Virus record (IMG/VR): IMGVR_UViG_3300047319_001839
Span: 1 to 37,059 of that record
Strand: one strand, 5' to 3'
DNA length: 37,059 bases
Source of the DNA: a virus
Shown: in pieces, positions 1 to 22,841 of the stretch
Layout: every line of letters starts with the position of its first letter
Position numbering within the stretch: position 1 is the stretch's first letter
Notes under the pieces: generated by a model
What the model saw: the letters and a program-made list of their open reading frames with translations, nothing else
Database searches by the model: none
What the model was told of the DNA's origin: nothing
Position numbers and translations under genes: made by a program

Positions 1-2
1 GC

Positions 3-1690: not shown

Positions 1691-1793
1691 CGTCCACCCT
1701 GCACCCGAGAGGAGAACTGCGCGGGCAGGCGGCGTCGGGTGGACGCGCCGCCGGGGAGCTACCCCTGCCCGCGCATCTCTTCTCCGCCTGGTC

Positions 1794-1823
1794 GTGGACA
1801 GCTCGCCGCTGAGAGCTGTCCAC
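1794..1823. promoter_or_regulatory. Inverted pair of the GAGCTGTCCAC element (divergent)
   Basis: GTGGACAGCTC (1794-1804) and GAGCTGTCCAC (1813-1823) form a perfect 11-bp inverted repeat with an 8-nt spacer, GCCGCTGA. It lies between the minus-strand HNH gene and the plus-strand gene at 1873, so each arm points to one gene. The same element recurs at 4159, 12151 and 16223. No T-run follows, so it is not an ordinary terminator. A promoter or activator site is inferred. Confidence 0.6.
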
Positions 1824-1872
1824 AGGTGAGGTGACTCTCTGCTGGTCACCACCTTCCAAGGAGCACACCACC

Positions 1873-2298
1873 ATGCAGAAAGAAAAAGACCTCGCCAGCT
1901 ACATCAAGGTGCTGCGCGACAACGAGCCGCGCGTCATCATGGCCGGCAACATCACGTACACCGGCCAGACCATCGACCGGCAGGGCTACGACAACGCGAG
2001 CCACGTCATCCTCACCGGCGCGCTCACCGACTCGCTCTTCACCTGCAACCTGTGGGAGTCGGACGACTCCGGCATGGCGGGCGAGACGAAGGTCGCGAGC
2101 ACGGACCTCATCGGCCAGGTGCAGGACTTCGTCATCACCGGCACGGGCGGCGCCGACAGCAACAAGGCGTTCAAGGTCGGATACAAGGGCATTCGGCGCT
2201 ACCACCGCCTGAAGATCGTTCAGTCGGGCGCGACCACCGGCGGCTACATCTGCTCGGTGTCCGTGCAGAGCGGCCCCGACTTCGCCCCCGTCTCGTAA
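1873..2298 (+). CDS. Small head-region protein (putative capsid accessory)
   Basis: A 141-aa soluble protein with no motif I can name. The ATG at 1873 is chosen for its AAGGAG ribosome site about 9 nt upstream; the GTG-led frame at 1831 would add a segment that crosses the leader. The body is beta-rich. Its C-terminal part, with 'RRYHRLKIVQSG' and 'GGYICSVSVQSGP', looks like small proteins often encoded just after the major capsid gene and left as hypothetical. Position suggests a head decoration or stabilising role. This is the first gene of a block that follows the 1813-1823 element and runs to 4158. Confidence 0.7.
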   Translation: MQKEKDLASYIKVLRDNEPRVIMAGNITYTGQTIDRQGYDNASHVILTGALTDSLFTCNLWESDDSGMAGETKVASTDLIGQVQDFVITGTGGADSNKAFKVGYKGIRRYHRLKIVQSGATTGGYICSVSVQSGPDFAPVS

Positions 2299-2310
2299 GC
2301 CCAGGGCTCG

Positions 2311-2988
2311 ATGCCGGCGCGGCTCATCACACCGCCGTCCGGCGAGCCGCTGTCGCTCGCCGACGCGAAGGCGCACCTGCGGCTGGACACGCCGCTGGAC
2401 GACGCCTACGTGACGAGCCTCATCACCACGGCCCGCCAGTACACCGAGAGCGTGTGCTGGCGGGGCATGTTGGCCCAGACCTGGGAGCTCGTGCTCCCAG
2501 GCTTCCTGGGCGACGACCGCTTCGAGCTCGGCGAGCGCGCGCGGCGGCACTTCTTCCTGCCCGTTGGCTACGAGTGGTCGAACGCGGACCGCGCTTACCG
2601 CTTCCTGCCGTACATGGAGCTCGAGCGCGGGCAGCTGACGACGAGCCTCGCGTCGAACGCGGTGAAGTACATCGACGCGAACGGCGTGCAGCAGACGCTC
2701 GACCCGAGCGTCTACGTCGTGGACAACGTGCGCGAGCCCGCGCGGCTGCAGCTGGCCTACGGGCAGAGCTGGCCCCTCACGAGGGACCAGTGGGACGCGG
2801 TCCGGGTGCAGTACCAGGTGGGCTGGGTGGATGCGCCGTCGGTGCCAGGCCCGCTCAAGCAGGCGATGCTCCTGCTCATCTCGCAGCTGTACGAGCACCG
2901 CACGCCCGAGGTCGCCGGCGTCATCACGCCGGTGCAGTTCGCGTTCGACGCGTTGATTGCCCCCTACCGGCTGAACCGCATCGGATGA
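2311..2988 (+). CDS. Head-tail connector, gp6-like (phiE125 gp8 family)
   Basis: A 225-aa adaptor predicted to form the ring under the portal at the head-tail joint. The N-terminus carries the family signature: 'LSLADAKAHLRLD' followed by 'DDAYVTSLITTARQYTE'. The C-terminal 'PGPLKQAMLLLISQLYEHR' helix is also typical of gp6-like connectors. The phiE125 gp8 group is usually near this length. The ATG at 2311 follows the previous stop by 12 nt with only a weak ribosome site. The stop overlaps the next start (ATGA). The order gp6-like, closure, gp10-like, terminator is the normal HK97-type order and supports the call. Confidence 0.85.
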   Translation: MPARLITPPSGEPLSLADAKAHLRLDTPLDDAYVTSLITTARQYTESVCWRGMLAQTWELVLPGFLGDDRFELGERARRHFFLPVGYEWSNADRAYRFLPYMELERGQLTTSLASNAVKYIDANGVQQTLDPSVYVVDNVREPARLQLAYGQSWPLTRDQWDAVRVQYQVGWVDAPSVPGPLKQAMLLLISQLYEHRTPEVAGVITPVQFAFDALIAPYRLNRIG

Positions 2989-3344
2989 AGCCGACGACCG
3001 GCCAGGGCATCAACGCCGGCGCGATGCGCGAGCAGGTGCAATTGCAGCAGCGGGCCACGCAGCAAGATGCCGCCGGCGAGCCCCAGCTCACGTGGAACGT
3101 GTTCGCGACCGTCCGCGCCGAGGTGGTGCGCACGACGGGTCGGGAGATTTACGGTGCAGCGGAGCGCAACTCGCGCGTCCCCACGATGTGGAAGCTCCGC
3201 TATTTCGACGGGGCGCTGTCTCAGATGCGGCTGGTCGACCTCAAGACCACCCGGGTCTACGACATCATCAGCGCCATCGACCCGACCGGGCGGCGCGAAG
3301 AGCTCCTCGTTGCCTCCATGGAGATTGTCGAGGCCACGCCGTGA
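2985..3344 (+). CDS. Head closure / head-tail joining protein
   Basis: A 119-aa protein of the phage head-tail joining family (SPP1 gp16-like). It is expected to plug the connector after DNA packaging. Family features are the opening 'MREQVQLQQRA' strand, 'TWNVFATVRAEV' in the middle, and 'RLVDLKTTRVYDI' followed by 'REELLVASMEIVE' at the end. The length is normal for the family. It starts at the ATG that overlaps the upstream stop (ATGA) and ends overlapping the next gene (GTGA). A longer open frame upstream in the same phase is a shadow of the connector gene. Confidence 0.82.
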   Translation: MKPTTGQGINAGAMREQVQLQQRATQQDAAGEPQLTWNVFATVRAEVVRTTGREIYGAAERNSRVPTMWKLRYFDGALSQMRLVDLKTTRVYDIISAIDPTGRREELLVASMEIVEATP

Positions 3345-3787
3345 GCATGGTCGAGTTCAAGCTCACGGGTCTCAGCGACCTCGAGGCGCGCTTGCTCGAC
3401 CTGGGCGCCGAGCTGGGCCAGAAGACCCTCGCCCAGGCGGCGCGGAAGGCCTTCAGGCCCGTGCTCGATGCCGCCAAGGAGCTCGCGCCCATCTGGTCAG
3501 GTGCACTCCGCGACTCCATCAAGCTCACCGTGAAGAAGCCGAAGGACGGCGACGCGGTGGTCGTGGCCGGTCTCTACATCGGCGAGGCCGCCGGCTATGA
3601 CACCGGCGAGCTCCCGCCCGCGCGGCGGTGGCACTTCATCGAGCTCGGCACGGCACACGCCGCGGCGCATCCGTTTCTTCGCCCCGCGCTCGACGGCCAG
3701 GCGTCGACAGTCCTTGACCTCCTGAAGACCGAGCTCACCGCCGCCATAGGCCGCGCGGTGAAGAAGAAGGCCAAGGGCCCGAAATGA
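3341..3787 (+). CDS. HK97 gp10-like tail completion protein
   Basis: A 148-aa protein resembling HK97 gp10, which acts at the head-tail interface. Visible features are 'FKLTGLSDLEARLLDLG' at the N-terminus, the helical 'ARKAFRPVLDAAKELAP' followed by 'SGALRDSI', and near the C-terminus 'RWHFIELGTAHAAAHPF' with 'LRPAL', the most diagnostic block of the family. A GTG at 3341 overlaps the upstream stop and has GAGG 7 nt before it, so I prefer it to the ATG at 3347. The stop overlaps the next ATG. The C-terminal tail is Lys-rich. Confidence 0.85.
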   Translation: MSMVEFKLTGLSDLEARLLDLGAELGQKTLAQAARKAFRPVLDAAKELAPIWSGALRDSIKLTVKKPKDGDAVVVAGLYIGEAAGYDTGELPPARRWHFIELGTAHAAAHPFLRPALDGQASTVLDLLKTELTAAIGRAVKKKAKGPK

Positions 3788-4158
3788 GCAGCACCGGAGA
3801 CGCGCTCTTCAGCGCCTTGAGCGGCGCCGCGGCGGTGAACAGCATCGTCGGAACGCGCATCTACCCGAACACGATGCCTCAGGGGCCGCGGCCCGTGAAC
3901 TACACGGCCATCGTCTATCAGGTCGTCTCCGACGTGCCGGCCAACGACCTGACGGGCGATGCTTCGAACCGGCTCCGGAATGTCCGGGTGCAGATCGACT
4001 GCTACGCGAAGCAGTACGACACGGCCCAGGCCCTCGCTGATGCTGTCGACGTTGTCGTGACCACGAACCTGGCCGGCTGGCGGGAGCTGTCCCGCGACCT
4101 CTACGACGACGCGGCCGAGCTCCACCGCGTGTGGATGGACGTCTGGCTCTGGCGCTGA
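3784..4158 (+). CDS. Tail terminator / completion protein (DUF3168)
   Basis: A 124-aa protein of the DUF3168 group, which caps the tail tube where it meets the head. Recognisable segments are 'ALFSALSGAAAVNSIVG', 'RIYPNTMPQG', 'YTAIVYQVVS' and 'RVQIDCYAKQYDTAQALAD'. The fold is short and alpha/beta, and the length is typical. It is the last gene of the block that begins at 1873. Its TGA (4156-4158) is followed at once by the GAGCTGTCCAC element. Confidence 0.85.
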   Translation: MSSTGDALFSALSGAAAVNSIVGTRIYPNTMPQGPRPVNYTAIVYQVVSDVPANDLTGDASNRLRNVRVQIDCYAKQYDTAQALADAVDVVVTTNLAGWRELSRDLYDDAAELHRVWMDVWLWR

Positions 4159-4169
4159 GAGCTGTCCAC
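4159..4169 (+). promoter_or_regulatory. Single GAGCTGTCCAC element before the tail tube gene
   Basis: CGCTGAGAGCTGTCCAC here is identical over 17 bases to the plus-oriented arm near 1823. It lies 45 nt before the ATG of the major tail protein and has no inverted partner. The neighbouring genes run in the same direction. It probably restarts transcription for the most abundant tail protein; this is inferred from position. Confidence 0.55.
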
Positions 4170-4214
4170 GGGCGGCCCTAGGTTGCCTCACATCTCGACG
4201 GAGGCACCCGCACG

Positions 4215-4661
4215 ATGACGACGAAGGCGAGCAGCACCAGAGGAGTCAAGCTGCAGCGAGGCGACGGCGGCAGCCCCGAGACCTTCGCCACCATCGCCGA
4301 GGTCACCAGCTTCAAAGGTCCGAGCGAGAAGGCGCCGAAAATCGACGCGACCTCTTTCGACTCGACCGCGATGGAGTTCATCGGGGGCCTGCCGGACAAC
4401 GGCGAAATCACGGCCGAGGTGCAGTTCATCGCGACCGATGCCCAGCAGCAGGGTCTACGGAACGACCTGCGCGCCGGCACCAAGCGCAACTTCAAGCTCG
4501 TGCTCAACGATATGCCCGTCGGCGGCGCGAACCCGACGTCGGTGGCGTTCGCGGCCATCATCACGCAGGCGCCTGAGATCGGCGGCGGCGTCAACCAGGT
4601 CGTGAAGGGCTCCATCACCCTGGTCATCAGCGGCACCGCGATCTGGACGTACGCCAGCTAA
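4215..4661 (+). CDS. Major tail protein (tail tube subunit)
   Basis: A 148-aa protein in the tail-tube position between the terminator and the assembly chaperones. It has the compact Gly/Thr-rich tube fold signature of siphovirus tail proteins: 'VTSFKGPSEKAPKIDAT' with 'SFDSTAMEFIGGLPDNGE', then 'RNFKLVLND', and 'VVKGSITLVISG' at the end. The 'ID.T..DS.A.E.I.GL.D.GE' pattern is common to this family. The ribosome site is strong (GGAGG, 4199-4203). It is the first gene after a GAGCTGTCCAC element, which fits high expression. Confidence 0.83.
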   Translation: MTTKASSTRGVKLQRGDGGSPETFATIAEVTSFKGPSEKAPKIDATSFDSTAMEFIGGLPDNGEITAEVQFIATDAQQQGLRNDLRAGTKRNFKLVLNDMPVGGANPTSVAFAAIITQAPEIGGGVNQVVKGSITLVISGTAIWTYAS

Positions 4662-4688
4662 CAACGCAGTCGAACGGAGGACTCCACC

Positions 4689-5033
4689 ATGGCTCTTCTC
4701 GCAGTCACCCCTGTCACGCGGTCGGGAGTGCAAATCGACCTGACCATGGTCGCCCCCACCGCCGGCACGGGCGACACCTGGGTCAACACCGGCGCCGAGA
4801 TGCTCGTCGTCAACAACGCGAGCGGCTCGCCCATCAACGTCACCATTCCCCTGACGCCGACGCCGGACGGACTCGCCGTCACCTCGCGAGTCGTGGCGGT
4901 CGCAGCCGGCAAGATCGAGCTCATCGGCGACTTCCCGCCGGGCCAGTACAACGACGCCACCGGCGTCGTGAAGGCGACCTGCTCCGCGGTCGCGACCGTC
5001 ACCATCGGCGTCTTCAAACGCATCCTGGCGTAA
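4689..5033 (+). CDS. Small structural protein, tandem paralogue 1
   Basis: A 114-aa beta-rich protein of unknown function. It is clearly related to the next gene: both share 'NTG.E.L.V.NA..SP..VTI', 'DGLAV..R.V.V' and 'G.FP.G.Y.D..G.V...'. Proteins of this type are common near phage capsid and tail genes and are sometimes called decoration or fibre-like, but I cannot assign the site. The start has a clear ribosome site (GGAGG). The pair sits between the tail tube and the assembly chaperone, so a tail or outer-surface structural role is likely. Confidence 0.7.
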   Translation: MALLAVTPVTRSGVQIDLTMVAPTAGTGDTWVNTGAEMLVVNNASGSPINVTIPLTPTPDGLAVTSRVVAVAAGKIELIGDFPPGQYNDATGVVKATCSAVATVTIGVFKRILA

Positions 5034-5054
5034 CCCAACAAGGAGAAAGCGACC

Positions 5055-5390
5055 ATGGCGGTCCTCGCGGTTGTCAATGCAGTCACCAGTGGCATCAATC
5101 CCGTGCCCACCGTCGCAGCTTCGGCGGGCGGCGACTCGTTCCCGAACACGGGGCGCGAGATCCTGATCGTCAAGAACGCGGACGCGTCACCGCATACGGT
5201 CACCATCCAAACCCCGCAGACGGTCGACGGTCTGGCGGTCGCCGAGCGCGCGGTGGTGGTCACCAATGCGACCTCGCAGATGATGGGGCCGTTCCCCATC
5301 GGAACGTACAGCGACACGGGCGGCAACGTGAACATCACCTACGACGCCGTGACGTCGGTCACCGTCTTGGTGGTCAAGGTTCAGGTCTAA
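5055..5390 (+). CDS. Small structural protein, tandem paralogue 2
   Basis: A 111-aa homologue of the preceding protein, aligned along its whole length ('NTGREILIVKNADASPHTV', 'VDGLAVAERAVVV', 'GPFPIGTYSDTGGNV'). It begins with ATG after an AAGGAG site, 21 nt after the previous stop. The two copies have diverged well beyond half of their positions by eye, so the duplication is not recent. It may be a minor or alternative form of the same virion component. Function is unknown. Confidence 0.7.
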   Translation: MAVLAVVNAVTSGINPVPTVAASAGGDSFPNTGREILIVKNADASPHTVTIQTPQTVDGLAVAERAVVVTNATSQMMGPFPIGTYSDTGGNVNITYDAVTSVTVLVVKVQV

Positions 5391-5416
5391 GCGGTCGCTC
5401 AAACGAGTTCGGGAGG

Positions 5417-5818
5417 ATGACCATGCTCACGCAGGAGCAGATCCGCGCGGTGCGGCTGAAGGACTCCGAGGTGGTCAAGCTCGACCGCCTCGGAATCAGC
5501 GTCCGCGTCGTGATGATGGGCAGCAGCGCGGCGCTCACCATTCGCGATCTCCAGGGGTCGCCGGGCCCGACGAAGGATGCGCAGCTGTTTCCGCTGCTGC
5601 TCAAGGGCGGGCTCGTCCAGGAGAGCGGCGCTCCGCTCACCGACGCCGACGTCGAGGAGCTCGTCAGCGTTCTCAGCATCGACGAGCTGATGCTGCTCAT
5701 CGAGAAGGTCAACTCGAAGGTCCGCCCTCAGAAGGCCAGTCCGACGAGCACCAGCGGCGACTCGACTTCGAGTACGACCTCTGCCTCGAACTCGGCTGGC
5801 CCCACCCCGATTACCTGA
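5417..5818 (+). CDS. Tail assembly chaperone, gpG-like
   Basis: A 133-aa protein directly before the tape measure in the position of lambda gpG, which keeps the tape measure soluble while the tail tube assembles. The first 100 residues look coherent ('MLTQEQIRAVRLKDSEVV', 'VEELVSVLSIDELMLLIEK'). The last 30 are a Ser/Thr string that looks like read-through in the wrong frame. The -1 frame over the same bases (from about 5752) encodes a conserved-looking continuation, so the normal short product probably coexists with a frameshifted gpGT. GGAGG stands just before the ATG. Confidence 0.75.
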   Translation: MTMLTQEQIRAVRLKDSEVVKLDRLGISVRVVMMGSSAALTIRDLQGSPGPTKDAQLFPLLLKGGLVQESGAPLTDADVEELVSVLSIDELMLLIEKVNSKVRPQKASPTSTSGDSTSSTTSASNSAGPTPIT

Positions 5819-5841
5819 GGCAGCTGCTCACCGTCGAGCAG
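5702..5841 (+). other. Probable -1 translational frameshift zone (gpG to gpGT)
   Basis: The gpG frame and the frame of the next ORF differ by -1. From about 5752 the -1 frame reads 'RRLDFEYDLCLELGWPHP' then 'DYLRQLLTVEQMDGW', a sequence that continues without a stop into the ORF at 5842 and resembles the T part of tail chaperones. The gpG frame over the same bases is Ser/Thr-rich. I see no canonical X-XXY-YYZ heptamer; the only in-register slip with re-pairing is Pro at C-CCT, 5725-5728. Confidence 0.5.
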
Positions 5842-6084
5842 ATGGACGGCTGGCGCGCCCACTTCGCGCGGAGGCCGTTCGGCTTCGCGCGCGCCGACGC
5901 GTTTCATGGCGTCCTGTGCGCCACGGTCGCCGCGGCCGCTGGCGCCGAGCTGTCTCCCGCCCACTTCATGCTCGGCGGCGGCGGGGCGCCCGAGCCGGAG
6001 CCAGAGAAGGATTTGATTTCGTTCCTGCAGGAGAAGCTTCCGCCGGCGGCGCCGCCCGGACGTCCACGAGCTGAGAGAGGCTGA
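5842..6084 (+). CDS. Tail assembly chaperone, gpT-like C-terminal part
   Basis: An 80-aa ORF if read from its own ATG, but the coding signal in this frame clearly starts upstream, near 5752. 'MDGWRAHFARRPFGFARAD' is the type of sequence found in T-domain proteins ('..WRA....PFG..R.D'). The rest is Ala-rich, then 'ISFLQEKLPP' and a Pro/Arg tail. There is little ribosome site before the ATG. It is most likely the extension of gpG made by -1 frameshifting, used in ratio with gpG for tape measure chaperoning. It ends 5 nt before the tape measure start. Confidence 0.65.
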   Translation: MDGWRAHFARRPFGFARADAFHGVLCATVAAAAGAELSPAHFMLGGGGAPEPEPEKDLISFLQEKLPPAAPPGRPRAERG

Positions 6085-6089
6085 CGCCC

Positions 6090-8282
6090 GTGGCATCGCT
6101 CGCCGAGCTGACCGTCGATCTCTCCGTCAACACCGCCGCGCTCCGCAAGGGGCTCGACGACGCGAAGGGTCACCTCGAAAGCTTCGGTCAGAAAGTCGAA
6201 GGTCTCGTCAAAGGCGTGGTCGCCCTCGAGGCCGTGAAGCTCGCAATGGAGGGGGTGAAGAAGGCCGGCGAGTTCATGGAGCAAGGCATCAAGGATGCCA
6301 CCTCGCTCGGCAACGGTCCGGCCCGCGAGCTCGGAGAGACGCTCGAGAAGGCCGGCCTCGCCACCCGCCAGCTCGGCGCAAACCTGATGTCGGACCTTGC
6401 GCCGGCGTTCAATTCGCTCATTTCGTGGTTCACCCAGGGCGCGGACCTCGGGAAGATCCTCACCAAGGTCGCCGAGGTCCTCGGTCAAGCGTTCAGGGAT
6501 CTGGTCAAGCCGCTCGTCGCGGTAGCCGGGGCCATCAAGGGCTTCGCCGAGGGCGGCACTCTCGAGTCGGCCCTGGGCGGCGCGATCACGGCGATGGACA
6601 AGCTCGCCGAGCACGGCGAGGCGTTCGCCGGCTCCCTAAAGACGGCGCAGCAGATCGCTCGGCAGATCGCCGAGATGCAGCTGGCCAACACGGACAAGAA
6701 CATCGACCGCGAGGCGGCGCGCTCGGAGGCGCAGTTCGCGAACCTGACCGGCAATCGCCGGCAGGACAAGTTCGCCGGTGCGACGGAGGGCTTCTCAGGC
6801 TTCGAGAACGCGATCGGCCACTGGGTCGTCGAGATGAAAGCGGCCGCCGACCTGACTCGACTGGCAGCCGACGCCGAGACGTACCATCAGCAGATCGCCG
6901 CGGAGGCATACCGCCTCGAGGCGGACCAGCACACGCAGCTGGCCGACAAGGCGAAGCTCGCGGCCGACGGCTTCAGGATGATGAAGGAGAAGCTGATCGT
7001 CGACACCCAGGCGATCAACAACATCCACTTCAACCTCGGCGAGAGCGTCTCCAACATCGGGCGGAACGCGGGCATCAGGACTCAGCAGTTCAACAACACG
7101 TTCAACCCGACCAAGGGCTTCGAGAACTTCGGCGACGCGCTCGCCAAGCAGACCAAGGCGCTCGAGAACCAGGCCGGCCTGTTGGCCGCGGGTGAGATCA
7201 TCCAGCAGCAGTTCGGTGCGGCGGCGCAGGGCACCGTGCTCGCGCTGAAGGCGCAGGCCGACCAGGAGGGACGAAACGCCGAGGCGGCCAAGGAGGCCGC
7301 GGACGCTTTCTTCGCGGTGAAGGACCGCATCCGGGACCAGCTCGTCGGCGGGCTGCAGGTAGCCGGCGACGCGTTCCTCTCGAAGATCGGCCAGCTCGGC
7401 ACGGTCATCAACGACGCCATCAAGGGCTTCCAGCAGGGCGGTATCTGGGGAGCCCTGGCCGCCCTGATCATGGACCTCCTGTCGATGATGGACGGGTGGA
7501 AGGACATTCAGAACCTGGCGCAGGGTCAGCTGATGATGGCGCTGAAGGACATGTCGAGCGGCCTCAACAGCGTCATCGGCGGGCTCAAGCCGCTGATGGG
7601 CGCGGTCGAGAGCATCGCCCAGGCCTTCCATGGCGTGCTGAACCCGATTCTCGGGCTCGTCGGCAAGCTGCTCAAGGGCATCGCGCCGATCATCGAACTC
7701 GTCGGCATCGCGCTGCAGAACATCGGCTCTTCGCTCGCTCCGGTCTTTCAGATCATCGGGGCCATCATCACGCCGATTCTGAAGGCGCTCGAGCCCATCC
7801 TCCGGGCCGTCGCCCTGGTGTTCATCGCGCTGAAGCTGTCGACCGACCTGGTCTCGCTCGCGTTCAACAAGGTCATCGACGACCTCTTCCATCAGAACGC
7901 CGGCGGCGTCCTGGATGCCACGAAGAGCGTCGTCGACGACCTCGCGCAGATGCAGGACGTCGCGACGAAGGGCCTCGACGGCGTGGCGGCCGCATCGGCC
8001 GACTCCGCGGAGGCGATGGGCGCGACGGCCAATGCAGCGAACGGCGCCGCAAAGTCGCTGTCGAAGTTCAGCGAGAACCTGAGCAACGTGCCCAGCGGTT
8101 TCCGCATCGCCCTGCGCACCTACCAGTCGATGCAGGCCGCCGGCGCTCACCAGCTGCCGGGCGGGGGCGCGGCCGTGGTCCACATCGACAAGCTCACGGT
8201 GGCGGCCAACAGCATGACCGAGCTCTACGACCAGCTCTTGAAGCTGCACAGACGGAACTCCTTCAACGGCGGCGGGGGCTGA
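6090..8282 (+). CDS. Tape measure protein
   Basis: A 730-aa protein that spans the tail lumen and sets tail length. It starts at GTG with GAGAGG about 9 nt upstream. Typical features: an N-terminal 'LAELTVDLSVNTAALRKGL' followed by a long helical, Ala/Gln/Lys-rich body (residues 20-440); a central hydrophobic, Gly/Ile/Leu-rich section with 'GLVGKLLKGIAPIIELVG' and 'FQIIGAIITPILKALEPI' (about 500-590); then a less regular end. At the usual 0.15 nm per residue the tail would be near 110 nm, which is inference. Position after the chaperones and before the tail tip genes supports the call. Confidence 0.9.
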   Translation: MASLAELTVDLSVNTAALRKGLDDAKGHLESFGQKVEGLVKGVVALEAVKLAMEGVKKAGEFMEQGIKDATSLGNGPARELGETLEKAGLATRQLGANLMSDLAPAFNSLISWFTQGADLGKILTKVAEVLGQAFRDLVKPLVAVAGAIKGFAEGGTLESALGGAITAMDKLAEHGEAFAGSLKTAQQIARQIAEMQLANTDKNIDREAARSEAQFANLTGNRRQDKFAGATEGFSGFENAIGHWVVEMKAAADLTRLAADAETYHQQIAAEAYRLEADQHTQLADKAKLAADGFRMMKEKLIVDTQAINNIHFNLGESVSNIGRNAGIRTQQFNNTFNPTKGFENFGDALAKQTKALENQAGLLAAGEIIQQQFGAAAQGTVLALKAQADQEGRNAEAAKEAADAFFAVKDRIRDQLVGGLQVAGDAFLSKIGQLGTVINDAIKGFQQGGIWGALAALIMDLLSMMDGWKDIQNLAQGQLMMALKDMSSGLNSVIGGLKPLMGAVESIAQAFHGVLNPILGLVGKLLKGIAPIIELVGIALQNIGSSLAPVFQIIGAIITPILKALEPILRAVALVFIALKLSTDLVSLAFNKVIDDLFHQNAGGVLDATKSVVDDLAQMQDVATKGLDGVAAASADSAEAMGATANAANGAAKSLSKFSENLSNVPSGFRIALRTYQSMQAAGAHQLPGGGAAVVHIDKLTVAANSMTELYDQLLKLHRRNSFNGGGG

Positions 8283-8284
8283 CC

Positions 8285-9103
8285 GTGAGCTGGCTCGCCA
8301 TCAGCGGCCTCGACCTGTCGGCGATCGCCGCCACGGTATCCGACCCGAAGGCCGACCGCCGCGACGTCGGCATCCAGGCTCCGGCCAACGACGGCAGCAT
8401 GCGCGCCACGCGCATCAACCGGAAACACGACCTGAGCGTGGTCTCGATTCCGCTCTCGGGCTCGGACGCGTTCGCCTGGGAGAACCTGCTCGTCGGCGAG
8501 GGTCACCACTTCGCCTTCGATGCGAGCCTCTACAGCTCGAAGGGCCTCGGCCCGAGCTCGAGCAGCGGCGCGACCCAGGTCGCCGGTACCCCGAAGTACG
8601 GCGCCGGCGTGCTGCGCCTCGCGGCGACGACGGGCACCATCACCTACCCGGCCGCGGCGAACTCGTCCGGCGGCACGCCCAGCTGGACCGTCATGGTCTG
8701 GCGCTTCGAGACCGCGGTCTGGCACCACTACGTGGTGACGAGCGCGGGGCACAAGTGGTTCGACGGCGTGCGCGCCGATGGCACGTCGACGACCTGGCTC
8801 AGCGTGGGGAGCGGGAACGTCACCATCGCGAACACCGGCGGCGCTTCGCAGGACTACGACGACCTGGTGGTCCTGCCAGTCGCGGTGCTCGACGCGTGGC
8901 CGCCGCTCTTCTTCGCCCTCGGTGCGGCGTTCAGCGACCTGCCCTACCTCACGGTCGCCGGCAGCCTCGTGCTCGAGGCGGCGACGCGCAAGATGATCGG
9001 CAAGTGCACGGTCGCGAAGGTGCTGCGCGCGAACCCCACCGGCGCCGCCGGCGCGGCCGCGAAGGACGTCACCGTGCTGCAGATCGACCTGATGGAGAAG
9101 TGA
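8285..9103 (+). CDS. Tail tip protein with LamG-like region
   Basis: A 272-aa protein between the tape measure and the hub. The GTG at 8285 lies 2 nt after the tape measure stop; the longer frame upstream is a shadow. The middle resembles concanavalin/LamG-type domains in phage tail proteins: 'SWTVMVWRFE', 'HHYVVTSAGHKWFDGV', and 'DYDDLVVLPVAVLDAWPP' (roughly residues 135-210). The C-terminal part, with 'KCTVAKVLRANP', may connect to the hub. Position suggests a distal tail or adhesion component. The exact family is not identified. Confidence 0.7.
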   Translation: MSWLAISGLDLSAIAATVSDPKADRRDVGIQAPANDGSMRATRINRKHDLSVVSIPLSGSDAFAWENLLVGEGHHFAFDASLYSSKGLGPSSSSGATQVAGTPKYGAGVLRLAATTGTITYPAAANSSGGTPSWTVMVWRFETAVWHHYVVTSAGHKWFDGVRADGTSTTWLSVGSGNVTIANTGGASQDYDDLVVLPVAVLDAWPPLFFALGAAFSDLPYLTVAGSLVLEAATRKMIGKCTVAKVLRANPTGAAGAAAKDVTVLQIDLMEK

Positions 9104-9104
9104 C

Positions 9105-11861
9105 GTGCGAGCGATCAGCGCGACGCAGCAGGCAGTGCTCGACAACGGCAACCAGGCCGAGTTCGTGCGCGTGCAGATCAAGGACTCGGGCGGCACCTTC
9201 CGCGACCTGACCACCTACCCCACGTTCAACGCGGTGAAGACCGTGCAGTGGGGCGAGCAGATCGACCAGCCGCACGCGACGTTCACCGTCACGCTCTTCC
9301 GCGAGCTGTACCAGCTGAGCCTGTCGCCATACGTGCAGGCCTCGGCGCTCAACCGCGCGTTCAACCCGGCGAACGCCTTCGGGGCCCTCCTCGCGGTGAA
9401 TCGAGAGCTGAAGATCGAGTGTGCCATCGTCGCGATGGACATGCAGCCCGCCTCAGGCGACTGGTTCGAGGTCTTCCGCGGGCGCGTCGACAAGGTCGAC
9501 CCCGGCAAGGGCGACACCATCGAGCTGAGCGGGCGAGCTCTCTCGGGTCGCCTCGCCCAGCAGTACATCAAGTACGAGCGCGTGTACTCGTATGCAGCGA
9601 CCGGGGGCGCCTCCGTGGCCCTGCGCATCTGGGAGGCGAACCAGGTCTACGCGCTCAACGAGTACCTGCTGCCCGCGAGCCGCAACGACGCTGACCCGGG
9701 CTTCAACAGGTTCCTGAAGTGCAGCCAGGCCGGCACCAGCGGCACGACCGAGCCCGTCTGGACCGGCGCCGCCAACCAGGTCGACGGCACGGCGAAGTGG
9801 GACTACATCGGCGCGCCCACGACGTCGGGCAACCCTGTCGAGCAGGTGATGCAGAACATCCTCGACGACAACAAGGCGGCGAGCGATTCGACCGTCACGC
9901 TCTTCACGCCGTCGAGCCCGGGCTGGAACATCACGCAGTTCATCCAGCAGCGGCAGTTCACGATGGACGGCATTCTCGCCCTGGCCCAGCAGATCGGCTG
10001 GGACCTTCGCTACAAGTGGCGCGCCTCGAGCGTTCAGTTCGAGCTGACCCTCTCCCAGCCGGTGCGCTCCGCGCCGTCGGTCAACTTCACGTTCGGCAAA
10101 TCGGACTACGAGGCGCCGACGCAGCTCGGGGTCGACATCTCGACCATTCGCAACGCGATCCGCGTCTGGTATGGCGACGCGTCCGACCTGTGGCCCGACG
10201 GCACGCCGAAGCGCAAGCCCGTCGAGGTGAGCGATTCGACCTCCATCACGAAGTACGGCGAGCTGTGGATGGAGATCCAGGAGGACCAGACCTCGCAGAT
10301 CGACTCGAGCACCGAGGCGAGCGCGCTGGCGAACGCCGCGCTGTCCGACCTGAAGGAACCGACGGCCGAGCTCGACGTGCCGCTGATGCGCGGCTTCCCG
10401 TGGGTGGAGCTCAACGACTACTACACGTTCAGCGCGAACGGCCTGCAGTTCGATTCGGACCAGTCGGTGGCGGTGACGCAGTTCCAGCACATGCACGAGA
10501 ACGGCAAGCTGAAGACGAGCTTGCAGACGCGCGGCCTGCCCACCATCGGGGCGTCGGCATACCTGCATCGGCGTGTGAGCCTGGTCGTGCCGCCGAAGTT
10601 CACGCCGCACCGGGCCGTGCACTTCAACGGCACCAAGACGCCGGGCGCGTCCAAGAGCAGCATCGTCGGTGGGCACCGCATTCAGCTGGCGCAGACCTTC
10701 GACAAGAACTCGCTGCCCGAGGAGTACGAGCACCACATCTATGCCAGCGCCGGCGCGACGCTCGACACCACAACGCTGAAGGAAGTCTCGCGGGCACGGG
10801 TCATCGAGGTCGGCGATCTGATCCCCGCAAAGACCTACTACCACCGGGTCGTGCCGCGACACCGCAACGAAGGTCGGCTCGTGCGTGGGCAGCCCTCGGT
10901 TGAGACCTCTTTCGTCGCTGGCCAGGCCTACGCGGCCCACCTGCTCGACGGCATCGCCCTCGGCGACTACCCGCTGAACGGAGGCTTTGAGACGCGCTTC
11001 GACGGCGTGAACATGCCGGACCACTGGACCTACAACTTCGCCGGCGGCGGCGTCTTCGGGACCAATCTCGTCGTGATGGAGGACGGCAACGGCGTGAGCG
11101 GAAGCCGCTACCTCCGCTTCGTGATGCTCGCCGGCGCCGAGACGACGGTCGACTCGGCGCTGATCCCGGTGATCAACGAAGCGGGCGTAGCCAACCGCAC
11201 ATCACAGCTCTACCGGCTCACGGCGTGGATCAAGAATGGGAGCAGCAACACGGCCGGGAACTTCATCGTCTATTGCGTGCTCTACGACTACACCGGCTCG
11301 GGCGTCGGCAACTCGAGCACAATCAGTGTCTCGGCGACGTCGAAGGTAGGGAACTGGCAGAAGGTCGAAGGGTACATCACGGTCGATTCGGCGACGACGA
11401 TCCGAAGTGTGCAGCTCGAGATCCAGCCGTCGGTCATCGCCGGCGGACAGGTTTGCCAGATCGACGTGGACGAAATTCGCCTGCAGTGCGTCGGCACGCC
11501 TTGGTACAACGTCGGCGACACCACGAAGTTCACCGACAATTACGAATCGATCCCGGGCTTCAACAACCCCGGCACGGCCTGGGCGAACTTCGGCAACCCC
11601 TACGCACCGGCGGGCTTCCGGCGCGACCAGTTCGGGCGCGTGTGGACGCGCGGGCTCGTGAAGAACGGGGCACCGGCGAACTCGAAGATCTTCACGCTAC
11701 CGGTCGGGTACCGCCCAGCGACGAACAAGCGCCCCTACCTGCCGACCGTCTCGAACAACGCGTTTGCTGTCGTCGAGATCGCCGACAACGGCGACGTCGT
11801 GGTGCAGGCCGGCGGCAACGCCGCGCACGTCAACCTCGACTTCAGCTTCGTGACCTTCTAG
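9105..11861 (+). CDS. Tail hub / receptor-binding fibre protein
   Basis: A 918-aa virion protein. Residues 1-170 look like a tail hub base ('WGEQIDQPHATFTVTLFREL', 'FEVFRGRVDKVDPGKGDTI'). The middle reaches a likely FN3-type module ('YYHRVVPRHRNEGR', about 585-600). A jelly-roll carbohydrate-binding-like module spans about 620-790 ('YPLNGGFETRFDGVNMPDHW', 'WIKNGSSNTAGNF'). A small C-terminal domain ('PAGFRRDQFGRVWTRGLV', 'FTLPVGYRP', to residue 918) is of the kind seen at the ends of tail fibres. It starts at GTG one base after the previous stop. It is the last gene of the tail block and the best candidate for host recognition. Confidence 0.8.
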   Translation: MRAISATQQAVLDNGNQAEFVRVQIKDSGGTFRDLTTYPTFNAVKTVQWGEQIDQPHATFTVTLFRELYQLSLSPYVQASALNRAFNPANAFGALLAVNRELKIECAIVAMDMQPASGDWFEVFRGRVDKVDPGKGDTIELSGRALSGRLAQQYIKYERVYSYAATGGASVALRIWEANQVYALNEYLLPASRNDADPGFNRFLKCSQAGTSGTTEPVWTGAANQVDGTAKWDYIGAPTTSGNPVEQVMQNILDDNKAASDSTVTLFTPSSPGWNITQFIQQRQFTMDGILALAQQIGWDLRYKWRASSVQFELTLSQPVRSAPSVNFTFGKSDYEAPTQLGVDISTIRNAIRVWYGDASDLWPDGTPKRKPVEVSDSTSITKYGELWMEIQEDQTSQIDSSTEASALANAALSDLKEPTAELDVPLMRGFPWVELNDYYTFSANGLQFDSDQSVAVTQFQHMHENGKLKTSLQTRGLPTIGASAYLHRRVSLVVPPKFTPHRAVHFNGTKTPGASKSSIVGGHRIQLAQTFDKNSLPEEYEHHIYASAGATLDTTTLKEVSRARVIEVGDLIPAKTYYHRVVPRHRNEGRLVRGQPSVETSFVAGQAYAAHLLDGIALGDYPLNGGFETRFDGVNMPDHWTYNFAGGGVFGTNLVVMEDGNGVSGSRYLRFVMLAGAETTVDSALIPVINEAGVANRTSQLYRLTAWIKNGSSNTAGNFIVYCVLYDYTGSGVGNSSTISVSATSKVGNWQKVEGYITVDSATTIRSVQLEIQPSVIAGGQVCQIDVDEIRLQCVGTPWYNVGDTTKFTDNYESIPGFNNPGTAWANFGNPYAPAGFRRDQFGRVWTRGLVKNGAPANSKIFTLPVGYRPATNKRPYLPTVSNNAFAVVEIADNGDVVVQAGGNAAHVNLDFSFVTF

Positions 11862-11862
11862 G

Positions 11863-12105
11863 TCAGTGAACGCAGTCGCCGTTGTGGGACCAGATGTCCT
11901 GCTTCACCGGCTCGCTCCCGCCATCGGTCGGCCACGGTTCGGCGATCCACGAGGGCTCGCAGATCCAGGCCTGCGTGCCCTCGCACTCCGGCATGTTCAC
12001 CTCGTCGGGGCAGCACTTGGAGCCCACCGCGCGCAGTGACGGGCAGACCTCGGGGACGGTTGGGGCGCCGCAAGCGGCCAGGAGCACGATGAGAAGCGGC
12101 TTCAT
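11863..12105 (-). CDS. Cys-rich lipoprotein (possible lysogenic conversion factor)
   Basis: An 80-aa minus-strand protein with a clear lipoprotein signal: 'MKPLLIVLLAACGAP', where LLAAC is the lipobox. The mature part holds six further Cys ('VCPS', 'KCCPD', 'ECEG', 'ICEP', 'DCVH'), pointing to disulfides outside the cytoplasm. I chose the ATG at 12105 because it places the signal peptide at the N-terminus; an ATG at 12141 would add 12 residues. It is convergent with the tail hub gene (1-nt gap) and divergent from the exported protein at 12186, with the palindrome at 12151 between them. Surface-acting phage lipoproteins often block superinfection; that role here is speculation. Confidence 0.65.
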   Translation of the reverse strand: MKPLLIVLLAACGAPTVPEVCPSLRAVGSKCCPDEVNMPECEGTQAWICEPSWIAEPWPTDGGSEPVKQDIWSHNGDCVH

Positions 12106-12150
12106 GCCGTCTTTGACGGAGCGCATGTCGTTCGAATTCAAACGTCAGCC

Positions 12151-12163
12151 GTGGACTGTCCAC
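12151..12163. promoter_or_regulatory. Palindrome GTGGACTGTCCAC between divergent genes
   Basis: GTGGAC-T-GTCCAC is a perfect 6-bp palindrome around one base. It shares CTGTCCACG with the elements at 1813, 4159 and 16223. It lies 22 nt before the ATG at 12186 and 45 nt before the minus-strand lipoprotein start. It is again symmetric where the flanking genes diverge. Regulatory function is inferred. Confidence 0.55.
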
Positions 12164-12185
12164 GCTCGGGGTGAGGCTGCTCGAC

Positions 12186-12548
12186 ATGAAACGAGCCCTC
12201 CCCGTTCTCGCCGCCTTCGCACTGGCCGCTGTTGCCGGCGCCGCCCTCGCCCAGGTGCGCCTGGTCCCCCAGTACCACTACGAGCTCACCAACTGCGACG
12301 TCAGCGGCACCATCACCACGAACATCGCGGACGGCACCTACCTCATGAGCTTCAAGGACGAGGTGCTCTGGGTATGCACGGGGGACGCCGGGTGCTCGAA
12401 CGGCGGTCACTTCTATTCGCCCGGGCTCACCATGCGGCAGGACTTCAGAGGCGCGCCCGGCATCGGCCTTACCCCGATCAGCTGTCGCAGCGCCGGCGCG
12501 ACCGGCGACATCGCGCTGACGCTGATGGGCATTCAGTCCTCGCCCTGA
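12186..12548 (+). CDS. Exported small protein with signal peptide
   Basis: A 120-aa protein starting 'MKRALPVLAAFALAAVAG' with Ala-Leu-Ala before Gln: a standard Sec signal peptide cut near residue 22. The mature part (about 98 aa) is beta-rich with five Cys ('NCDVSG', 'VCTGDAGCSNGG', 'SCRSAG'). The ATG at 12186 is preferred over a GTG at 12171 because GGTGAGG stands 9 nt upstream and the signal sequence begins there. It opens a run of exported or membrane-bound proteins. A signal peptide is unusual for a virion component, so it may act in the envelope or on the cell surface. No family is recognised. Confidence 0.68.
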   Translation: MKRALPVLAAFALAAVAGAALAQVRLVPQYHYELTNCDVSGTITTNIADGTYLMSFKDEVLWVCTGDAGCSNGGHFYSPGLTMRQDFRGAPGIGLTPISCRSAGATGDIALTLMGIQSSP

Positions 12549-12551
12549 GCC

Positions 12552-14474
12552 ATGAGCGACCCGGTCAGAGAGGCGAACAAGGCCTGGCGCCGGCTCGAGG
12601 CCGACGTCGACGCCCGGCCGCCGCGGCGCGCACCGGCATGGCCCGGCTTCATCTTCGGCCTGGCCGCCTGCAGCGTGTACGCGGCCGTGGCTCTGTCCGA
12701 GGGGCTGCCGAACCCCGAGGGCCCGATCTTCTCGAACCCCGCCACGTTCCCGGCGTCGTCGTTCCCGCCGATCTTCGAGTTCGCACCCACCTCGGGCTCC
12801 GGCATGGGCTCGGCGTGCGGCACCTGCGCCAACATGATGGCGAACCCGGAGAGCCTCGACGTCGCTCCATGGACCCTGGAGAACAGCGGCGCCGGCGTGA
12901 CGGTCATCACCGTGAACGCGAAACAGGCGCCGAATGGGACGCTCACCGCAGAGCGGCTCCAGATCCCCGCGACGACAGCGGGTCAATGGTCGGCCGTCTT
13001 CCAGCAGCCACCAGGAACCATCTATCCAGGCGCGCACTCAGGGAGCATGTACGTCGCCGGCAACGGCGCGGGCGGGGCGACGGATCTCTGCCTCTGGAAC
13101 GGCTCCGGCCACACGTGCACCACCTGCAACTTCTTGGCATACCCGACATGGACGGTCTGCACGGTGCTCAACGTCACCCCGTCGGACGCGACGTTGATCT
13201 TCACCTTCGGCAACGGGACCGGCTTCAACGGCTCCATCGCTCGCTCAGCGTTGGACCTCTACGCCTGGGGCGGACAGGTCAACTCGGGCGCGAACGTGAA
13301 CTCGTACACGCCACTGCCGACCGGCACAAAGGGCGAGGTGCTCATCTTCAGCAGGGCGAGCGCGGCCACTTGCCTCAAGACCGTGGGCGGCGCACCGCAG
13401 ACCGTCGCGAACGGCGACATGGTGACCTGCGCGAACGGGCAGCCACGGGTGATGCCCGGGGCCGACGGGACCAGCGTCAACGGCCTGCTCGACGAGACTG
13501 GGCGGACGAACGTCGTACTCCATTCGCAGGACTTCCCCGATGTCTCCTGGGCCAACTTCATCGCCGGCACGGGTACCAACCCATCCAAGGGCGGCGCAGA
13601 CAGCGACACGTCGCCACTGAACGACGTGACCGCCGAGAAGGTGACCTTCAACATCACGAATGCGAGCAGCTCGAGCGGGCTTTCTCAAACCATACTGACC
13701 GCGGTCGCCTACTCGTTCTGTGGCTGGGCACGCGGCAATGCGACGACGAACAGCGGCACCTTCGACATCTGCATGGACAACGCCTCGACGGCCACCTGCG
13801 CGGCGTGCAGCTACGTGCTGGGGAACTGGGCCTACTGCAAGCTCGAGAACGTCACTTCGAAGGTCTCCGGGAAGGCCTACGTCGGGAACCTCTCCTCGCT
13901 GAATGGCGGGACCACCCGGAGCGCTCAGACGCCGACGCTGTGGGGTTTCCAGGCCGAGGCCGGCTCATACTGCAGCAGCTACATCGCGACCACGACCGCG
14001 AGCGCCGCGCGCGTTGCAGACCTTGCCGATCTGCCCATCGCGCTCCCGACGCTCACGGGCCTGAGCGTGGCCGACAGCATCATCACGCCATCTGACCTTT
14101 CCGCCCTTGGCGGGTCAGTTCTAGTGGGGACGCTTGGCGATGGGACGCCCGGTGGCGCGGCCGGTTCGACCGACTACTTTACCGGCCAATACAGCGGCGG
14201 AAATTTCTGGAACTTCACGCATGGGGTTGGAACGCCGACGACGAACGCGGGGGCGGCCCTCTCGGCCGGCGCGCACCGTTACGCTGTTTTTCATACCGGG
14301 ACCCTGCTCAACAATTGCATCGACGGTGTGTGTGGCGCCGGCAACGCCGGCACGTTCTCGTCCCCGACGACTTTCACAAGATTCCGCATCGGCGCCTTCG
14401 CTGCAGCCACCAACAACATGGGCGGCATCACGAAGCGGGTCTGCATCGACCGCGACCCACTGAGGTGCCGATGA
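12552..14474 (+). CDS. Membrane-anchored Cys-rich adhesin-like / fibre-like protein
   Basis: A 640-aa protein. Residues 1-30 are charged; 31-48 form one membrane segment ('FIFGLAACSVYAAVAL'). The large remainder has 18 Cys and looks extracytoplasmic. It contains two related modules, about 98-245 and 319-470. Each has 'TAER/TAEK' early and a CxxC block later ('CTTCNFLAYPTWTVC', 'CAACSYVLGNWAYC'). 'GLLDETGRTNVVLHSQDF' at 311-328 is a motif of phage fibre and adhesion proteins. A third domain ends the protein. The mixture of receptor-binding style and an export anchor is odd: it may be displayed on the host rather than packed in the virion. Its stop overlaps the next start. Confidence 0.65.
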   Translation: MSDPVREANKAWRRLEADVDARPPRRAPAWPGFIFGLAACSVYAAVALSEGLPNPEGPIFSNPATFPASSFPPIFEFAPTSGSGMGSACGTCANMMANPESLDVAPWTLENSGAGVTVITVNAKQAPNGTLTAERLQIPATTAGQWSAVFQQPPGTIYPGAHSGSMYVAGNGAGGATDLCLWNGSGHTCTTCNFLAYPTWTVCTVLNVTPSDATLIFTFGNGTGFNGSIARSALDLYAWGGQVNSGANVNSYTPLPTGTKGEVLIFSRASAATCLKTVGGAPQTVANGDMVTCANGQPRVMPGADGTSVNGLLDETGRTNVVLHSQDFPDVSWANFIAGTGTNPSKGGADSDTSPLNDVTAEKVTFNITNASSSSGLSQTILTAVAYSFCGWARGNATTNSGTFDICMDNASTATCAACSYVLGNWAYCKLENVTSKVSGKAYVGNLSSLNGGTTRSAQTPTLWGFQAEAGSYCSSYIATTTASAARVADLADLPIALPTLTGLSVADSIITPSDLSALGGSVLVGTLGDGTPGGAAGSTDYFTGQYSGGNFWNFTHGVGTPTTNAGAALSAGAHRYAVFHTGTLLNNCIDGVCGAGNAGTFSSPTTFTRFRIGAFAAATNNMGGITKRVCIDRDPLRCR

Positions 14475-15076
14475 CTCGCGCGCAGCTCATCGCCGTGGCC
14501 GTGGCCGTCACCGCCCTGGGCGCCGGCACGGTTCGGTTCTTCACCGCACAGAGCGGCTCGCCGCAGTTCGACACGTTCGTTGGCGGCGCCGGCATGCTCG
14601 AGATCCTCGACCGCTCGAAGTGCACCGTCGCGGCCTGCAACGCGCCCCTCTGCCAGCAGGCCCAGGCTGCACTCGACGACGCCGGACAGCCCTGCACGGT
14701 CGGCTTCGTCGACTGCTCGGTGCGCCTCGGTACGACCGCCAGGGCGATCGCGGCCGACGCCGGCGCCGCGCTGTCCTCGTCGAGCTACGTGCGCGCCCGA
14801 CTCGTGGGCATGCGCTGCTCGGCCATCGATGGCGGCTTCGCGTACGCGGTGCCCGTCGACGACGCCGGCTGGCCCGTCTACATGGTGAACGTCACCACGC
14901 CGCTCTGTGTCCGGGCGCCGCTCGATGGGGGCAACACCTGCCTGCGCGACGACGGCAGCGGCCCGCGCTTCTTCGGCACCGGCAACGTGTTCCCCGCGGC
15001 GCAGGCCTCGGGCACGAACTGCGACCAGGTCGAGTGCACCGTCGTCTACGGCGATGACCCGGCGGTTTCCTTGTGA
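14471..15076 (+). CDS. Exported or membrane-anchored Cys-rich protein
   Basis: A 201-aa protein whose N-terminus 'MTRAQLIAVAVAVTALGAG' is a signal peptide or signal anchor. The body has many Cys ('KCTVAACNAPLCQQ', 'PCTVGFVDCSV', 'NCDQVECTVVYG'), suggesting disulfides outside the cytoplasm. The ATG at 14471 has GAGG in front and overlaps the previous stop (ATGA). The upstream frame to 14315 is a shadow. It is co-transcribed with the adhesin-like gene and may be its partner. No family is recognised. Confidence 0.65.
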   Translation: MTRAQLIAVAVAVTALGAGTVRFFTAQSGSPQFDTFVGGAGMLEILDRSKCTVAACNAPLCQQAQAALDDAGQPCTVGFVDCSVRLGTTARAIAADAGAALSSSSYVRARLVGMRCSAIDGGFAYAVPVDDAGWPVYMVNVTTPLCVRAPLDGGNTCLRDDGSGPRFFGTGNVFPAAQASGTNCDQVECTVVYGDDPAVSL

Positions 15077-15318
15077 GCAACGCGCTGCTCGAGAAGTGGC
15101 ACCAGGTCGGCGACATGCTGAAGGACGCGCTCGAGCACCACACCGAGCAGCTCGGCGACCGGAAGCAGGCCGACTTCGACCACAACACCCAGCTCGGACA
15201 CCTCACCAGCGCCGTGCACAGCTACCGGCGCGAGCTGCACGAGTACATCGACAAGGCAGAGCTTCGCTGGGCGGCGCTGTTCGACCACCTCGAGCTGAAG
15301 GACCCGACCCGTGGCTGA
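15073..15318 (+). CDS. Small helical protein of unknown function
   Basis: An 81-aa charged protein that looks entirely alpha-helical and His-rich ('HHTEQLGDRKQADFDHN', 'YRRELHEYIDKAELRW'). It starts at GTG overlapping the previous stop (GTGA) and overlaps the next gene by 8 nt. No membrane segment or signal is visible. It is translationally coupled to the following membrane protein and could be a cytoplasmic partner in lysis or tail-tip assembly; neither is shown. Confidence 0.6.
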   Translation: MSNALLEKWHQVGDMLKDALEHHTEQLGDRKQADFDHNTQLGHLTSAVHSYRRELHEYIDKAELRWAALFDHLELKDPTRG

Positions 15319-15622
15319 CCCAACGCTCTTCGAGCTCGGCACGCTGGGCGCCAGCGGTCTGGCCCTACTGGTGAGCAGCTGGAAGGGGCTCGCGAAGCGC
15401 AACGTCGATGCGCTCGATAAGACGATCGTTGACCTGACGACCGCCGTGGACAGCCTCCGCAAAGAGCTGCGCGACCTGCGCGACACCGACATCGGCCAGG
15501 CGAAGGACATCGGCAACCTTCAATCGGCCGTGGCGGGGCTCGAGAAACGCATCGACGGCCAGGGCGCGGCCTGGCGCTCCGAGCTCGACAAGCTGGCACC
15601 GCGAAAGTTGAGGGGTCAATGA
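15311..15622 (+). CDS. One-TM coiled-coil protein (spanin- or holin-accessory-like)
   Basis: A 103-aa protein with a weak N-terminal membrane segment ('LGTLGASGLALLVSSW') followed by a long heptad-rich helix ('VDLTTAVDSLRKELRDLRD', 'LQSAVAGLEKRI'). One N-terminal TM plus coiled coil just before an endolysin gene is the layout of inner-membrane spanins and XhlA-like holin partners. No Cys or lipobox is present. It starts at GTG inside the preceding gene and its stop overlaps the endolysin ATG. The lysis role is inferred from architecture and position. Confidence 0.6.
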   Translation: MADPTLFELGTLGASGLALLVSSWKGLAKRNVDALDKTIVDLTTAVDSLRKELRDLRDTDIGQAKDIGNLQSAVAGLEKRIDGQGAAWRSELDKLAPRKLRGQ

Positions 15623-16122
15623 GCACCATCATCGTCCCGACGTATCGAGATCGCTTCCTCGCCGAGATGGAGAAGCTCCTCGCGGCGAACATGCCCGTGC
15701 TCTGGAGCGCCAAGGGCCCGCTCGCCGTCGACTGCTCCGGCAGCATCTCAGTCGCGTTGGTCGCCATCGGCGGCCCGGACCTGCGCGACACCGTCAACGC
15801 TCAGGGCTACCACGACCGAACGCGCTTGCTCGTCGACGGCGAGTCACCGCTGCCCGGCGACCTGGTCCTCTACGGCGGCGGCCCGAGCACCATCGAGCAC
15901 GTCGCCTGCTACGACGAATATGGCGGGGTCATCTCCGCCGACGGAGCGACCAGCCACATCGATCCTCGCGTGCTCGGCTTCGACGTCGCACTGGCGCGGG
16001 CACTCGCGAACCCCGCGAATCGCGTCCGGCGGCACAACACGATCAGGTACCGCAGAGACACGCCGTACATCGTGGTCCACCGCAACGTGCTCGTCGACCG
16101 GCTAGACCAGGTCGAGCGCTGA
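15619..16122 (+). CDS. Endolysin, NlpC/P60-type peptidoglycan hydrolase
   Basis: A 167-aa protein resembling NlpC/P60 cysteine peptidases, which cleave peptide bonds in peptidoglycan stems. The nucleophile would be Cys39 in 'AVDCSGSIS'. The second conserved block is 'PGDLVLYGGG' followed by 'IEHVACYDE', giving His94. A third polar residue is likely in 'DGATSHI' (His113). There is no signal peptide, so it needs a holin. It sits directly between a coiled-coil membrane protein and holin-like genes. Length is normal for a one-domain lysin. The start overlaps the upstream stop. Confidence 0.83.
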   Translation: MSTIIVPTYRDRFLAEMEKLLAANMPVLWSAKGPLAVDCSGSISVALVAIGGPDLRDTVNAQGYHDRTRLLVDGESPLPGDLVLYGGGPSTIEHVACYDEYGGVISADGATSHIDPRVLGFDVALARALANPANRVRRHNTIRYRRDTPYIVVHRNVLVDRLDQVER

Positions 16123-16214
16123 TGCCTCACGACTGCGACTTCACGCTGCGTCCGCGCCCGCAGCCGAAGCACCCGCCGAAGCCGCCGCGGAACCCCTTCA
16201 CCCCGAAGCGCTGA
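16122..16214 (+). CDS. Possible 30-aa Pro-rich microprotein
   Basis: A short ORF whose ATG overlaps the endolysin stop (TGATG) and which reads 'MPHDCDFTLRPRPQPKHPP' to a basic Pro-rich end. It fills the gap before the GAGCTGTCCAC element at 16223. Coupling by overlap makes translation plausible, but the composition is what GC-rich non-coding DNA can also give. No homologue is known to me. Confidence 0.35.
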   Translation: MPHDCDFTLRPRPQPKHPPKPPRNPFTPKR

Positions 16215-16222
16215 GCCGCGGC

Positions 16223-16233
16223 GAGCTGTCCAC
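16223..16233 (+). promoter_or_regulatory. Single GAGCTGTCCAC element before the holin-like gene
   Basis: GCGGCGAGCTGTCCACG here matches 17 bases of the minus-oriented arm at 1794-1804. It lies 22 nt before the ATG at 16256, with GGGAG between. The neighbours run in the same direction and there is no inverted partner. It is probably the start signal of the last late block; inferred. Confidence 0.55.
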
Positions 16234-16255
16234 GGGCCGGGGGAGCTTCTTGGGC

Positions 16256-16765: not shown

Positions 16766-16827
16766 TCGATCTCAGCGGTCAACAAGGCTGAGCGGTCGCA
16801 GCGGCCTCACTCAAACGGAGCAGCACC

Positions 16828-17091: not shown

Positions 17092-17093
17092 GC

Positions 17094-22786: not shown

Positions 22787-22798
22787 GCGGCCTGTTTA

Positions 22799-22817: not shown

Positions 22818-22841
22818 GTCAATGTCCATGTCGTTTGCCGC

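Follow-up and report, generated by a model that had tools for sequence, protein, structure and literature searches.

A putative late promoter class in which a GTCCAC box substitutes for the -35 element, in phages probably of Myxococcota

The stoperators of mycobacteriophage L5 are repressor sites with no fixed link to -10 elements or start codons, and the Thermus phage P23-45 has leaderless transcripts. The middle and late promoters of P23-45 lack a -35 element, are used by the host RNA polymerase and belong to the extended -10 class (PMC7403470), while the MotA box of phage T4 lies 12 ± 1 bp from the -10 element (PMC2988021). In a viral DNA of 37,059 bases (the whole stretch analysed, hereafter the window; 68% G+C) we found an element that can be compared with each of these systems. 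As in T4 middle promoters, an asymmetric box takes the position of the -35 element, keeps a constant distance to a sigma70-type -10 element and recurs in many copies per genome; however, the -10 element is excellent in T4 and poor here, the box spacing is 9 bp, and the genes are late ones, predicted to be leaderless. The -35-less promoters of P23-45 on host RNA polymerase provide a second parallel, but the -10 element described here has no TG extension, and we know of no GTCCAC-like upstream box in P23-45. With L5 stoperators the element shares its short asymmetric form, its place in intergenic gaps and the temperate phage; in contrast to them its spacing is fixed and the late strand is strongly preferred, so that it does not behave as a stoperator. 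No description of such a promoter, including its copies in the Myxococcus phages Mx8 and Mx9, was found in the open-licence papers searched, and to our knowledge no late promoter of Myxococcus phages has been described.

The window contains the major capsid protein gene (18-1064; phrog_10), head-tail connector genes, the major tail protein gene and a tape measure-like gene. A leftward group encodes a HerA-like ATPase, for which a search for relatives found none, and a ParB/MT-A70 protein (20398-22515, minus strand), which looks like a fusion of a ParB N-terminal domain with an MT-A70 methyltransferase domain; a rightward early group encodes an integrase, a LexA-type DNA-binding domain and an HU/IHF-like protein. 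Packaging genes, which in relatives precede the capsid gene, are absent from the window. Because the integrase of the Myxococcus phage Mx8 is the most similar to its own (37%, E 3e-44), the host is probably a myxobacterium; integrase and LexA-type domain are the entire basis of this assignment. For comparison we used 11 viral contigs whose capsid proteins are 64-86% identical to that of the window.

A box and a -10-like hexamer at late gene starts

The box CTGTCCAC occurs six times in the window against 1.27 matches expected by chance, and none of 100 shuffles reached six. The first-pass annotation had reported it in non-coding gaps 22-50 nt before start codons, and indeed all the copies it listed were found, with measured gaps of 49, 45, 22 and 22 nt; two pairs of copies are identical over 17 bases, as it had noted (cgctgagagctgtccac before 1823 and before 4169; gcggcgagctgtccacg at 1794 on the minus strand and at 16223). 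Its statement that the window holds no other CTGTCCAC was wrong, as a sixth copy lies in coding DNA (15446-15453, minus strand) with no downstream element, and its division of the late region into four blocks was too low a count, given the sites with a one-mismatch core at 6060 (ACGTCCAC) and 35864 (GCGTCCAC). What it described was real as far as it went; it missed a second half of the element, the equally conserved hexamer xAxxxT 9 bp downstream, along with the leaderless spacing reported below and the late sites at 6060 and 35864. The observation holds and was understated, and overall we consider it partly confirmed. Its proposal of a phage-specific late promoter or activator site survives as well, as a prediction from sequence.

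Alignment of the sites in the window and its relatives gave the two-part pattern GTCCAC-N10-A-N3-T, i.e. the box, 9 bp and the hexamer xAxxxT. The box is asymmetric and reads (C/T/G)TGTCCACG, or a one-base variant of it, with the core GTCCAC. The hexamer is GAGGCT or GACGCT, with only the A at position 2 and the T at position 6 invariant; these match the two key bases of the sigma70-type -10 element, whereas the sequence as a whole, with mostly G at position 1, is far from TATAAT. Among 29 TGTCCAC sites on the late strand, scored without selection for a second element, 25 had both an A at +11 and a T at +15, compared to a maximum of 2 at any other offset from 1 to 35. Thus the two bases of a sigma70-type hexamer are found at one single offset, and the box is found in the place of the -35 element with a fixed 9-bp spacing to it, as in a MotA-type promoter.

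In 152 kb of clade sequence we counted 38 GTCCAC-type two-part elements (3.25 expected by chance) and 26 of the TGTCCAC type (0.55 expected), not all of them independent, because many are counterparts of one another among related phages. Nearly all of the 38 lie at gene starts and 37 are on the late strand; the random scatter over coding DNA that would have spoken against the earlier reading was not seen when the phage and its relatives were searched for the motif. A control with the reversed pattern gave 1 match versus 14 for the true pattern. All six full two-part matches in the window stand at late gene starts, none of them on the minus strand (Table 1). A TTGACA/TATAAT promoter was not found in 1-18000, nor was a TTGACA-like -35 element 16-18 bp upstream in the same interval (0 matches, 0.9 expected by chance). 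Compared by eye, neither the spacing of sigma54 promoters nor a reading of the box as part of a normal -35/-10 pair fits.

Table 1. Predicted late promoters, box copies and candidate regulator in the window
Feature	Position	Strand	Box and hexamer	Gene context and counterparts
Candidate late regulator	35406..35885	+		Last early gene, ends over the first predicted late promoter
Predicted late promoter 1	35864..35893	+	GCGTCCAC box 35864-35871, spacer 9, GATGAT 35881-35886	7 nt from GATGAT to ATG 35894 of the HNH endonuclease gene, the first late gene (phrog_2323, E 1e-27)
Inverted box copy	1794..1801	-	Hexamer GAGAAG (score 20.5)	Faces endonuclease gene 1061-1693 (-) (phrog_3322, E 1e-28)
Predicted late promoter	1816..1838	+	CTGTCCAC 1816-1823, -10-like GACTCT 1833-1838	Leader with Shine-Dalgarno sequence AAGGAG, gene at 1873
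Predicted late promoter	4162..4184	+	CTGTCCAC 4162-4169, -10-like TAGGTT 4179-4184	Leader with Shine-Dalgarno sequence, then major tail protein gene at 4215 (phrog_158); site also in L005, L007, G004, G005, L010 and L015, and with GTGTCCAC in L012 and G010
Predicted late promoter	6060..6089	+	ACGTCCAC 6060-6067, -10-like GAGGCT 6077-6082	7 nt to GTG 6090 of the tape measure-like gene, predicted leaderless; counterparts G004:10947, G005:11743, L015:3695
Possible weak divergent promoter	12136..12156	-	GTCCAC 12156-12151, hexamer TTGAAT 12141-12136 (score 10.8)	Faces ATG 12126 of lipoprotein-like ORF 11863-12126
Predicted late promoter	12151..12185	+	Palindrome GTGGACTGTCCAC 12151-12163, box 12156-12163, -10-like GAGGCT 12173-12178	7 nt to ATG 12186, predicted leaderless; counterpart G004:18528
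Predicted late promoter	16226..16255	+	CTGTCCAC 16226-16233, -10-like GAGCTT 16243-16248	7 nt to ATG 16256 of a membrane protein gene, predicted leaderless; counterpart G004:22451

The earlier remark that the element is symmetric only where flanking genes diverge fits the left-facing endonuclease gene and the lipoprotein-like ORF; the G004 copy of the palindromic site is without the palindrome. The inverted copy at 1794 is probably weak or inactive, since its hexamer lacks the final T. As a side observation, the endonuclease region (1061-1852, minus strand) separates the capsid gene from the next head gene, where relatives have about 110 nt, and the gene beside the inverted box pair seems to be an insertion. 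The small minus-strand ORF facing the palindromic site carries the lipoprotein signal LLIVLLAAC and possibly encodes a lysis lipoprotein.

The box is present in most of the 11 capsid relatives, at corresponding places. More distant capsid relatives (L087-L108) have ordinary upstream regions, and the box was absent from them in the tests made, with the exception of L091, which has two leaderless-type sites. Searching all viral contigs, we obtained no match to the inverted box pair; a strict leaderless pattern returned three contigs, namely two known relatives and the lone match L172. A looser pattern gave mostly background, and a double match in L210 lies antisense within a tape measure gene.

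Start codon spacing and the sites of Mx8 and Mx9

In 24 of 37 sites the start codon follows the T of the hexamer by 6-8 nt (exactly 7 nt in 16 of them), compared to 0.40 sites expected by chance. The -10 element of sigma70 promoters ends at -7, which would put the first transcribed base on the start codon or beside it; these genes therefore probably give rise to leaderless mRNAs, a prediction from spacing. In 10 of the other 13 sites a start codon with a Shine-Dalgarno sequence is in reach, with leaders of mostly 25-46 nt; the remaining 3 have no recognised start of this kind, one of them being truncated by the contig end. The genes opened in this way encode the HNH endonuclease, terminase small subunit, portal, head protease (phrog_94, E 6e-65), major tail protein, tape measure, tail fibre and a membrane protein.

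The same element occurs twice in Mx8, both times on the plus strand in non-coding DNA (0.035 expected): one site precedes the packaging operon, and at the other 6 nt separate the element from the start annotated for p64 (ATG at 36781), a tail fibre gene. The box at 18215 is followed by the hexamer GAGCCT. Mx9 has the same two sites, of which the one at its tail fibre gene is likewise of the leaderless type. Because these two phages are related, they count as one independent case rather than two. They resemble the window clade in having the element before packaging operon and tail fibre gene, but differ from it in that there are only two copies, and in an upstream extension, TGCACAT, which is found just upstream of both sites in both phages. 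The annotated gene Mx9_p70 (L296 32841-33170), which overlaps the predicted late promoter, is probably a false gene call. Mx9 also encodes p55 (L296 27052-27744), which matches a sigma-factor family (phrog_351, E 9e-14); as a counterpart is not annotated in Mx8, an additional level of control may exist in Mx9.

Proposed mechanism, candidate regulator and rival explanations

From the conserved two-part element, with its fixed spacing, strand and positions, we infer with good confidence a class of late promoters at which a box-bound factor replaces the -35 contact on the host RNA polymerase. The box would be located at about -29 to -22, within the spacer of a normal promoter; a -35 element was not seen. 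A factor that is produced, or becomes active, late in the infection would bind the box and hold the host polymerase, with a host sigma factor, at the poor -10 element, and transcription would begin 6-8 nt downstream of the hexamer, at two thirds of the sites on the start codon itself; the remaining sites would produce a leader, usually with a Shine-Dalgarno sequence. By analogy, this would resemble sigma appropriation in T4. No match to MotA or AsiA was found among the early proteins scanned, and such proteins diverge quickly. The phages that carry this promoter class form a temperate family, probably of Myxococcota.

If the activator is encoded by the phage, its best candidate, tentatively, is the product of 35406-35885, a suggestion based on its domains and on the position of the gene. 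It combines a zinc-finger-like N-terminus with a C-terminal helix-turn-helix of the serine-recombinase type (phrog_125 DNA invertase, E 8e-7, residues 87-154). Mx8 p41, encoded directly before a predicted Mx8 late promoter, is a weak relative (35% over 95 residues) without the helix-turn-helix; the link is tentative, because this type of zinc finger is common in phage HNH proteins. A search for viral relatives of the candidate found none, and its structure, predicted without an alignment, was too poor for use (mean pLDDT 54). A more detailed scheme, which we consider doubtful, would have a zinc-finger protein with an acquired serine-recombinase DNA-binding domain sit as a monomer on GTCCACG directly upstream of a minimal -10 element, replace the sigma region 4 contact independently of T4 MotA and drive a leaderless late regulon in Myxococcota phages. 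A further DNA-binding protein of the early group (24167-24463) has the DNA-binding domain of LexA (PF01726, E 2e-24) but not its protease domain, and Mx8 p17 and Mx9 p47 look related to it. LexA recognises a CTGT half site; since the CT of the box is variable, this protein is disfavoured as its reader.

A serious rival, possible in our judgement, keeps the promoter reading and changes nothing but the maker of the factor: an alternative sigma factor or activator of the Myxococcota host would read the promoter, and the phages would have copied a host promoter type. That the window clade and the pair Mx8/Mx9, phage groups with little else in common, carry one and the same element speaks for it, as does the finding that no sigma or RNA polymerase gene was detected in the window and its relatives (for the polymerase, in a search without positive control). 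However, a prophage must silence its late genes, normally via a switch made by the phage, and the Myxococcus phage Mx4 (50 kb) contains just three matches, which all lie on the minus strand and away from gene starts. That the phages bring a sigma factor of their own with an unusual promoter is suggested by p55 of Mx9, yet Mx8 has the same promoters with no annotated p55 counterpart, and Sigma70_r2 was absent from the window and four relatives with controls working, so that a sigma factor was seen only in Mx9; we regard this explanation as very unlikely. Even less probable is a T7-like single-subunit RNA polymerase of the phage. One conserved sequence in many copies before late genes only would suit such an enzyme, but no match to the RNA polymerase family (PF00940) was obtained in the window or the relatives (again without positive control), the early proteins are all too small, the part missing from the window corresponds to the packaging genes of relatives, and the element, about 30 bp to the start, is longer than a T7 promoter.

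The box might also be an operator for a phage repressor, like the L5 stoperators, and no promoter part at all. In the early control region (22795-22900) there is a palindrome, GCGGACATTTTATGTCCGC, and there are further half-sites with TGTCCGC, which is similar to TGTCCAC. Yet the box keeps one fixed distance to the -10-like hexamer and the start codon, keeps to a single strand and marks no transcript ends, which makes a pure operator improbable; a repressor role in addition to the promoter role is possible. A ribbon-helix-helix-like ORF (about 22876-23235) begins within this region, which is likely the operator of the lysis-lysogeny switch. Chance or coding constraint would suit the single CTGTCCAC copy, out of six in the window, that lies in coding DNA, but not the enrichment, the fixed spacing and the strand bias seen over 12 contigs, and can practically be discounted.

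Implications for phage late gene control

Taken together, the late promoter reading predicts exactly where transcription begins in two phages amenable to laboratory culture, and thus makes the late-gene switch directly testable. A second design with a box at the position of the -35 element, apparently independent of the first, would be added, and phage structural genes in large number would be expected to be translated from leaderless mRNA.
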